Of a DNA stretch of 20,966 nucleotides, positions 2,560 to 7,073 are shown one piece after another. The stretch's first letter is position 1. Each line of letters opens with the position of its first letter. The DNA comes from a virus: positions 1 to 20,966 of IMG/VR virus record IMGVR_UViG_3300043788_000146; one strand, 5' to 3'. Made by a program: the position numbers and the translations under genes. Under the pieces are notes generated by a model. It had not been told where the DNA came from, searched no databases, and saw only the letters and a program-made list of their open reading frames with translations.

Positions 2560-2732
2560 CCCCCCGCCTGACGGGGACTTGAAATAGGGCTTGCATCTTT
2601 TAAAAACGTTTTGTAACTTAACGAAATGAAAATGATACCCTTGCAATCAAAATCCAATTTCCCCGTCAGATGCGCGGCTCACCTCGCAAGGGTATCTCTG
2701 CGCGCTGGCGGGGTTCTATATCAGGGGGGATC
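2560..2732 (+). promoter_or_regulatory. Structured non-coding leader upstream of the helicase operon
   Basis: Inverted repeats are interleaved here: arm A at 2568-2577 pairs with 2660-2669 (10 of 10), and arm B at 2634-2644 pairs with 2686-2696 (11 of 11). The order is A-B-A'-B', the topology of a pseudoknot. A third match (CCCCGCC 2562-2568 with GGCGGGG 2707-2713) and a local hairpin (CCCCG 2562-2566 with CGGGG 2572-2576) compete with A. A perfect palindrome AAAACGTTTT (2603-2612) lies in the spacer of a weak promoter candidate (TTGCAT 2591-2596, TAACTT 2614-2619). The ribosome binding site of the next gene follows at about 2724-2729. The region may be an RNA regulator, an operator/origin, or both. 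Confidence 0.55.
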
Positions 2733-3293
2733 ATGTCTGAAGAACAAGAAAAATACTTCGAGAAATTAGTTCCGATGAAGTCGCCGCTAGGCCGGGAATT
2801 TCTGGCATTGCAGACAGAACGTAACAAGCAAAGAGATATTTTTGGCGCGTGTGCTGACAAAATGGCCGCTGATACGATGCCCTACCGCCATTCCGAAATC
2901 GCTTTAGGCCGTTTCCTCGACGACATGATTCCTCTCATCACAAAACATAATCAGATATTGGCTCCCGCTAAAGCCGGACTTTTTATGGCCGAGCATGACG
3001 CTAAAAATCCGCTCTTTGGGCCGAAGCTCCGCATAGATCGACGATCAGAACGAATTATCTGGACACGGTTTCTCATTGAACGGTATCGGCAATTCGTCAC
3101 GAAAGAAAAACTCAAAATGGTTCGTAGATATCATCCCCATTTGTGGCACGATCTGCGGCAGGCGTGGCGAGAGTTCAGGAAAGAAATTCTCATCTGGCAG
3201 AGTGGACATCAACCTTATGATGGATCACAGGCCATGCATTTAATGCTGGCCGTTCAAGTTAAAGCGAGGCTCTTGGCATCTGCCAATGACTGA
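2733..3293 (+). CDS. Hypothetical helical protein preceding the helicase
   Basis: The start at ATG 2733 is chosen because a GGGGGG tract sits just upstream. The frame stays open to an ATG at 2670, but that would place the inverted repeats of the leader inside the coding region. The 186-residue product is rich in Arg, Lys and aromatic residues and mostly helical, with several basic segments (for example LRIDRRSERIIWTRFLIERY and FVTKEKLKMVRRYHPHLWHD), which could suit nucleic-acid binding. No catalytic motif was recognised. Its stop overlaps the start of the helicase-like gene by 8 bases, so it is likely a replication-module partner. Confidence 0.7.
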   Translation: MSEEQEKYFEKLVPMKSPLGREFLALQTERNKQRDIFGACADKMAADTMPYRHSEIALGRFLDDMIPLITKHNQILAPAKAGLFMAEHDAKNPLFGPKLRIDRRSERIIWTRFLIERYRQFVTKEKLKMVRRYHPHLWHDLRQAWREFRKEILIWQSGHQPYDGSQAMHLMLAVQVKARLLASAND

Positions 3294-4443
3294 GCGATTC
3301 ACGGAGAAGTATTTGCAGTACGCTAATGAATTCACCGATTGCCCTGACCCATTCCTTCTATGGGGAGCATTGCTGGCTATTTCAGCATCCCTATCTCGCT
3401 GTACTTATGTCGCCGCAGGATCGTGGAATGTGGCTCCGCATATCTGGGTCGTATTGATTGGAAAGTCATCTTCTCATAAAAGCACGGCCATTTCTATCGT
3501 CGAAGATCTGATTGAATCCGTTGATCCGGAACGCTCGGCACCCCATGAATTCACATCCGAAGCTATTATTCAATCTCTATCGAAACAACCTATCCGTCTG
3601 TTCATTTTCGATGAAGCGAAGTCATTCTTCGATATGCTTGGAAAGAAGTACAACGAATCTCTGAAGTCTCTTTTTACAATTCTTTACCGCAAACCAAATT
3701 ACACGCGCACAACCATAAAGCATGGCCTTTTAAATATCCAGAATGCCTATTTACCCATGGGACTAGCAACAACTCCTGAGTGGTTACGACAATCGCTCCA
3801 AGATGCAGAGCAGTCCGCTATGTCGGGATTCCTGGCGCGGTTTTTGATGGTGCCTTATACTGGAGAAGGGAATAAACCCATGTCATTACCCCCGCCGCAT
3901 GATGCCGATAAGTTTAAAGTTCTTTCGGAGATGCTTTGGGAATACAAAAAGATTGAGCAGGTTTTTCATTACACCGATGAAGCACGATTGCGGCTGGATA
4001 AATGGTATCTGGACACAACAAAACGTGAGAACGATACATTGCCATTGTTGGGTCCATTCTTTGAGCATTTTAAGAATGAAGCCATTCATAAATTGTCGTT
4101 GATATTCGCTGTAGATCGAGGGGAACGCGAGATCACCTTGGATTCTTTTAAAGAGGCCGCCCTTTGCTTGCGGTATGTGGAAGATATGCTCCCTTCTTTG
4201 GTTGAAGATTTAACGGACAATAAATGGGACCGGGAACGCAAGAAAATAGCAGAGTACATTAAAGCCAAAGGGATCTGTAAACGCGAGGCTTTGGCTACTC
4301 ATGTCAAGATTCATGGGGAGTCACTTACAAGGCACCTCATAGGGCTCGAAGCGGATGGAAAGATAGTTCAAAAGAAAGAGAAAGGTACCACGAAACCTAT
4401 CTGCCTGTTGGAGTGGGTTGGGGCTATAGATGAGGAAAGGTAA
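3286..4443 (+). CDS. DUF3987-like replicative helicase / P-loop ATPase
   Basis: A 385-residue product. Residues 57-67 (LIGKSSSHKST) form a Walker A loop in the variant style of DUF3987 proteins, with His where the second Gly is usual. Residues 105-110 (LFIFDE) form Walker B. ATTPEW (161-166) could be a sensor motif and GFLARF (181-186) could carry an arginine finger. The C-terminal 70 residues (EYIKAKGICKREALATHVKI and on) look like a winged helix. DUF3987 proteins are RecA/AAA-like ATPases, often linked to a primase domain in phages and mobile elements. No primase domain is present here, so a separate primase or a host enzyme would be needed. It likely unwinds or loads at the phage origin. 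Confidence 0.8.
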   Translation: MTERFTEKYLQYANEFTDCPDPFLLWGALLAISASLSRCTYVAAGSWNVAPHIWVVLIGKSSSHKSTAISIVEDLIESVDPERSAPHEFTSEAIIQSLSKQPIRLFIFDEAKSFFDMLGKKYNESLKSLFTILYRKPNYTRTTIKHGLLNIQNAYLPMGLATTPEWLRQSLQDAEQSAMSGFLARFLMVPYTGEGNKPMSLPPPHDADKFKVLSEMLWEYKKIEQVFHYTDEARLRLDKWYLDTTKRENDTLPLLGPFFEHFKNEAIHKLSLIFAVDRGEREITLDSFKEAALCLRYVEDMLPSLVEDLTDNKWDRERKKIAEYIKAKGICKREALATHVKIHGESLTRHLIGLEADGKIVQKKEKGTTKPICLLEWVGAIDEER

Positions 4444-6727: not shown

Positions 6728-7073
6728 TAAACGTTATCGGAAGTGCGAGACAACTCTTAATATCGCCCCGACGGAGACTGATCCATCGCCGATGACGCGA
6801 GAGGGCACGCACGCGCTGGTGGAGAGGCATTACGCGCTCAAAATGGCTTTCCCCCGGCAGGTCGGGGTAGGGGGGGTGCCCGATCCCCATAGTCTTACCT
6901 CCCTTCCCTCTTTCCCGACGAAAAAAACAAAAAGCATCCTCGATTACCATCCCTCTTACCTCCGCGAAGATTGTCACTGCACCACATTCTCCTTTCCGCA
7001 CTGGCGCATTAGCTGTATGACCGGCATCGACGGTGGCGACACTGACAACGCGGAGATCCGCCGTCGATCATGA
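6717..7073 (+). CDS. Hypothetical protein, uncertain
   Basis: A 118-residue frame that overlaps the HTH gene by 11 bases and the next gene as ATGA, which argues for real translation. The N-terminal half (ETDPSPMTREGTHALVERHY) looks protein-like. The middle is proline- and glycine-rich and crosses a G7 run at 6870-6876. The end (LREDCHCTTFSFPHWRISCM) contains Cys and His. No Shine-Dalgarno sequence is evident (context GACGGAAA). A frameshift at the G run, natural or from sequencing, would alter the C-terminal half. Function unknown. Confidence 0.5.
   Translation: MQYNKRYRKCETTLNIAPTETDPSPMTREGTHALVERHYALKMAFPRQVGVGGVPDPHSLTSLPSFPTKKTKSILDYHPSYLREDCHCTTFSFPHWRISCMTGIDGGDTDNAEIRRRS

Follow-up and report, generated by a model that had tools for sequence, protein, structure and literature searches.

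Does the sequence in front of the helicase operon of this phage encode a structured leader RNA, and what might such a leader control? In the window, the 20,966-nucleotide stretch of viral DNA analyzed here, perfect inverted repeats of 10 bases (2568–2577/2660–2669) and 11 bases (2634–2644/2686–2696) interleave in the order A-B-A′-B′, as the first-pass annotation had described, and a perfect 7-base repeat joins 2562–2568 to 2707–2713. The palindrome AAAACGTTTT (2604–2613) and the Shine–Dalgarno (SD) G-run (2724–2729) were both located in the same gap. When 2558–2740 was subjected to 1000 dinucleotide shuffles, a perfect repeat of at least 10 bases appeared in 9 of them and one of at least 11 bases in 2, while two interleaved repeats of at least 10 bases each appeared in none. 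Given the many windows scanned in the first pass, this rarity alone is only suggestive; comparison with relatives settled the matter. The operon that follows the gap begins with two overlapping genes:

2733–3293, + strand: ORF1, the first gene of the operon, encoding a helical protein of 186 aa that belongs to no known family
3286–4443, + strand: DUF3987 helicase/primase-type protein (PF13148, E 6e-19; phrog DNA primase, E 1e-24)

Seven contigs in IMG/VR carry a helicase with 67–82% identity. The leaders of two of these (L004 and L005) are identical, leaving six distinct relatives. Based on the major capsid and portal proteins, the phage was placed among the SU10-like tailed phages. An alignment-based scan of IMG/VR for more homologues returned the same seven helicase loci, and none was found in the genome contig collection; a scan with ORF1 yielded no additional phage.

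The window and its six relatives have in common an H-type pseudoknot, always 5′ of the DUF3987 helicase/primase operon and, in every case, directly 5′ of the first start codon. There is one copy per genome. In the window, it consists of the following parts:

2634–2644, + strand: 5′ arm of helix S1, GATACCCTTGC, pairing perfectly with 2686–2696 and covarying in the seven leaders
2645–2660, + strand: loop L1, unpaired, with the conserved motif AATC..AATCC..TTT
2661–2677, + strand: 5′ arm of helix S2, CCCCGTCAG-A(2670 bulge)-TGCGCGG, pairing with 2698–2713 and covarying
2678–2685, + strand: loop L2, pyrimidine-rich, CTCACCTC
2686–2696, + strand: 3′ arm of S1, GCAAGGGTATC, the partner of 2634–2644
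2697, + strand: loop L3, one unpaired base between the 3′ arms of S1 and S2
2698–2713, + strand: 3′ arm of S2, CTGCGCGCTGGCGGGG, the partner of 2661–2677
2714–2732, + strand: AU-rich spacer and the SD G-run (2724–2729)

As used in the analysis, S1 comprises 11–13 pairs across the seven leaders and S2 comprises 12–16 pairs, in most leaders interrupted by one or two bulges or mismatches. L1 spans 16–20 nt, L2 8–12 nt and L3 0–2 nt, and the distance from the end of S2 to the start codon is 19–28 nt in all seven. Conservation within the leader is highest in L1 (mean pairwise identity 0.68) and exceeds that of the helix arms, which suggests that L1 may be a site of recognition; the repeated AAUC loop would be the specific target to look for. 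Scans of viral and bacterial collections with the L1 motif gave no further convincing member. Just 5′ of the ORF at 2674–3096 (− strand) of contig L039, a siphovirus tail-region gene, there is a leader that looks pseudoknotted and carries an AATC..AATCC loop; it was not reported by the covariance model described below. Elsewhere in the window, interleaved pseudoknot-like repeats at 6993–7068 (+ strand) end just before an ATG at 7070, but they do not contain the AATC loop and may be due to chance.

The first-pass annotation had thus drawn a leader pseudoknot with one correct helix and one incorrect one. Its 11-base pairing is S1. Its 10-base pairing is not conserved: the A′ arm is used in S2, but its partner is 2698–2713 (the GGCGGGG region) rather than arm A, which falls outside the conserved element:

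2568–2577, + strand: arm A of the 10-base repeat, not conserved in the relatives

The A-A′ helix was rejected, as it has no counterpart in any of the six distinct relatives, where the longest complement to S2 within 120 bases upstream is 3–5 bases, compared to 10 in the window. Arm A is unique to the window phage, and a transcript starting at the nearest promoter-like site would probably not include it. The “third” 7-base pairing of the annotation is real and forms part of S2, where it is extended to 16 pairs with A2670 bulged.

Support for the two helices came from compensatory changes, the absence of which in homologues had been named as grounds for abandoning the idea. In a hand alignment, such changes were present in 9 of the 12 S1 pairs and 12 of the 15 S2 pairs, and all 177 of 177 cells were canonical; the helices of L006 and L007 were completed manually in this alignment, and the S2 count is biased, its hand-made register having been selected to pair. 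The swap test is free of this bias: it requires no alignment and compares duplex energies between each leader's own arms and arms exchanged between phages, over 5040 permutations. The mean energy was −18.7 kcal/mol for own arms and −7.6 kcal/mol for swapped arms in S1, and −27.6 and −17.1 kcal/mol, respectively, in S2. For both helices, the true assignment of arms was the single best of the 5040 permutations. On an unfitted MAFFT alignment, S1 outscored every one of 500 column shuffles by each of the five measures used, as well as all slid registers, and the interleaved-pair (pseudoknot) score of each of the seven leaders exceeded those of 500 of 500 of its own shuffles. A covariance model of the kind that the first pass had proposed, built from the six other leaders without the window, recovered the window leader as its sole match in 86 kb (46.8 bits, E 5e-9).

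An H-type pseudoknot of two interleaved helices, each with covariation, is thereby strongly supported at the sequence level, although the covariation comes from few sequences (seven leaders) of one phage group and is equally compatible with a simultaneous pseudoknot or with two alternating hairpins. The hand-alignment cells include 13 G-U wobbles and no A-C, which would be the wobble of the minus strand; this pattern favors an RNA read from the coding (+) strand. Computation shows conserved, covarying coding-strand helices in a fixed place 5′ of the operon, with promoters positioned ahead of them in four relatives.

In these four relatives (L001, L002, L004 and L007), a TTGACA box is followed after a 17-base spacer by a −10 element that ends 6–9 nt before S1. 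Transcription in these phages is accordingly predicted to start approximately at the 5′-most base of S1. Sequence CCCCCTGCCCGAGTATGACGGCG occurs 5′ of the leader twice in L002 (3115–3330) and once in L001. A standard promoter scan of the window found none, and the best candidate fell below its threshold:

2579–2606, + strand: weak promoter-like site, TTGAAA-16-TAAAAA, 3′ of arm A and ending 27 nt before S1

Because this site is weak, the transcript start in the window is inferred. A terminator scan gave one terminator-like site in the window (2696–2713), one on the + strand of L007 (403–421, 5′ of S1) and none in L004; no terminator was common to the three.

The reading that we prefer, which we give about an even chance of being right, is that the leader is a 5′-terminal cis-regulatory pseudoknot, bound by a trans factor and serving as a translational operator like that of T4 gene 32. 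The operon mRNA would begin at or near S1, and S1 and S2 would build the pseudoknot with its conserved L1 loop. The trans factor, for which a phage replication protein is the most likely candidate, would recognize the folded leader and, once bound, block or permit loading of the 30S subunit on the AU-rich spacer and SD, 19–28 nt downstream. The controlled unit would be the replication operon of ORF1 and the DUF3987 helicase/primase, at the level of translation initiation. We infer all four elements of this reading: simultaneous formation of the helices, a regulatory role for the leader, action on translation and a protein signal. Counting against it, the SD is outside the pseudoknot, and the structure does not reveal a means of blocking it.

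ORF1 was considered as the binding protein. Its homologues, at 51–61% identity, were found in five contigs, and the protein was predicted to be all-helical. In L007 there is no ORF between the leader and the helicase, and in L006 only a short, divergent ORF, in which a 40-residue stretch resembles ORF1, and for these reasons autoregulation by ORF1 would not be general. An ORF1 profile matched the RNA-binding domain of SLBP, the eukaryotic histone hairpin-binding protein, weakly (E 0.06), with a similar spacing of RRxxQI, RYxxxxP, HP and IxxWx7D as judged by eye. Profile–profile comparison with hhalign gave a probability of just 3–6%, the Pfam SLBP model (PF15247) did not match ORF1, and the window's copy lacks several residues common to the ORF1 profile and SLBP. 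Foldseek and VIA-align searches with low-confidence ORF1 models (pLDDT 66–70) returned generic helical matches, and SLBP was not among the matches listed. The resemblance is weak and was kept as a lead only. That ORF1 is a phage relative of SLBP that binds the pseudoknot of its own leader is a long shot; if true, it would constitute an SLBP-type autoregulatory RNA–protein pair in a bacteriophage. On the other side of the leader, just 5′ of it, is an ORF that strongly matches Tad6, a type I Thoeris inhibitor (2183–2557, + strand; PF25188, E 7e-49), which would place an anti-defense gene beside the replication operon. An HNH/endonuclease VII-like protein is encoded on the opposite strand at 395–883 (−).

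The best rival to the operator reading, although an unlikely one, is a conformational switch. Here the pseudoknot would be the ON state, and opening of S1 would free its 5′ arm GAUACCCUU to pair with the SD AGGGGGGAUC in an OFF state that also has a short hairpin between L2 and the 3′ arm of S1, inside S2; a ligand, a protein or the ribosome would shift the balance, as reported for the timP mRNA, in which the active form is pseudoknotted and the ribosome binding site (RBS) is sequestered (PMC11228461). Indeed, in the nested minimum free energy structure computed for the window leader, the SD is masked by the 5′ arm of S1, and a rough estimate for the pseudoknot, −40.5 kcal/mol, is within 0.3 of the nested value of −40.8 kcal/mol, but these energies rest on an assumed pseudoknot penalty. 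In the window, the S1 arm forms a better duplex with the SD than shuffled arms do (p 0.017), and the relatives show weak trends; however, this pairing does not covary, 1467 of the 5040 permutations were equally good, and L003, L004 and L006 mask the SD only weakly. Masking of the SD by the S1 arm is thus plausible in the window and not conserved. The hairpin between L2 and S1 was also without covariation, and L2 as an anti-SD loop was rejected, its duplexes with the SD being no better than shuffles or swaps.

It is also improbable, in our judgment, that the leader is a constitutive stabilizer, in which a 5′ end buried in S1 would shield the operon mRNA from 5′-end-dependent decay without sensing anything. 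Some 5′-end enzymes require unpaired 5′ nucleotides (PMC3997798), and in L002, L004 and L007 the predicted +1 approximately coincides with the 5′-most base of S1. A simple hairpin would be enough for this purpose, however, so that a two-helix pseudoknot with a conserved L1 exceeds the need, and the best promoter-like site in the window would leave about 20 unpaired bases.

A metabolite riboswitch, with a small molecule bound by L1 and the junction, is very unlikely. The conserved unpaired L1, the compact pseudoknot and the absence from Rfam would suit it, but the operon serves phage replication rather than metabolism, there are seven examples only, and no expression platform is conserved: neither the seven leaders nor the terminator scans revealed a conserved alternative pairing to the SD or a conserved terminator. 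The suggestion of a riboswitch or attenuator in the first-pass annotation was not substantiated: the single alternative pairing of the SD is good in the window and does not covary. Finally, a DNA element (an origin hairpin or cruciform) or chance repeats, which the location 5′ of replication genes and the frequency of inverted repeats in phage DNA might bring to mind, can hardly account for G-U without A-C pairs, covariation, constant spacing to the start codon and the shuffle tests.

The first-pass annotation had recognized no known RNA family, and a search of 4227 Rfam families agreed: with Rfam 15, nothing in the window reached the gathering score, and at E up to 10 there were only two sub-threshold matches in 2400–2900, both upstream of the leader. 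We found no paper on this element in the open-access literature searched. Judged by its sequences, which are few and from one phage group, the element is a new RNA family among the known phage leader pseudoknots. The STAXI motif (RF01728) is likewise a pseudoknot near genes for DNA-handling proteins, but it consists of 2–3 tandem pseudoknots in Enterobacteriales (PMC2864571), whereas the helicase leader contains just one and matches no Rfam family. ToxI antitoxin RNA is, similarly, a pseudoknot 5′ of a small ORF; it is described as repeated units paired with an endoribonuclease toxin. A type III toxin–antitoxin system was rejected, since the helicase leader comprises only one unit and an all-helical fold is predicted for ORF1. 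Leader pseudoknots are tied to translation in the timP mRNA (PMC11228461) and in IncI-alpha repZ, which encodes a replication protein. Small or antisense RNAs are described as the regulators of both; for the helicase leader none was found, and SD masking is not conserved.

The closest parallel is the gene 32 operator of T4, where a replication protein binds over the RBS and the pseudoknot nucleates this binding (PMC535899). In T4 and RB69, as here, a 5′ pseudoknot is followed by a less structured RBS segment in the leader of a phage replication gene (PMC535899), and a pseudoknot 5′ of an unstructured RBS segment was found in all seven helicase leaders. The two differ in the gene concerned and no sequence relation was shown; the binder is a replication protein in T4 and a candidate trans factor here. 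The T4 pseudoknot measures about 28 nt, compared to about 80 nt in the helicase-operon leader; the segment after it in T4 exceeds 40 nt and contains UUAAA repeats, whereas the helicase leaders have a spacer of 19–28 nt in which no UUAAA or UAAA repeats were found. The leader described here is a covariation-supported RNA and a candidate for the control of a phage replication operon, with exact helices and loops defined for testing. If a phage protein does bind it, it would be a further case of the gene 32 principle, in a helicase operon.
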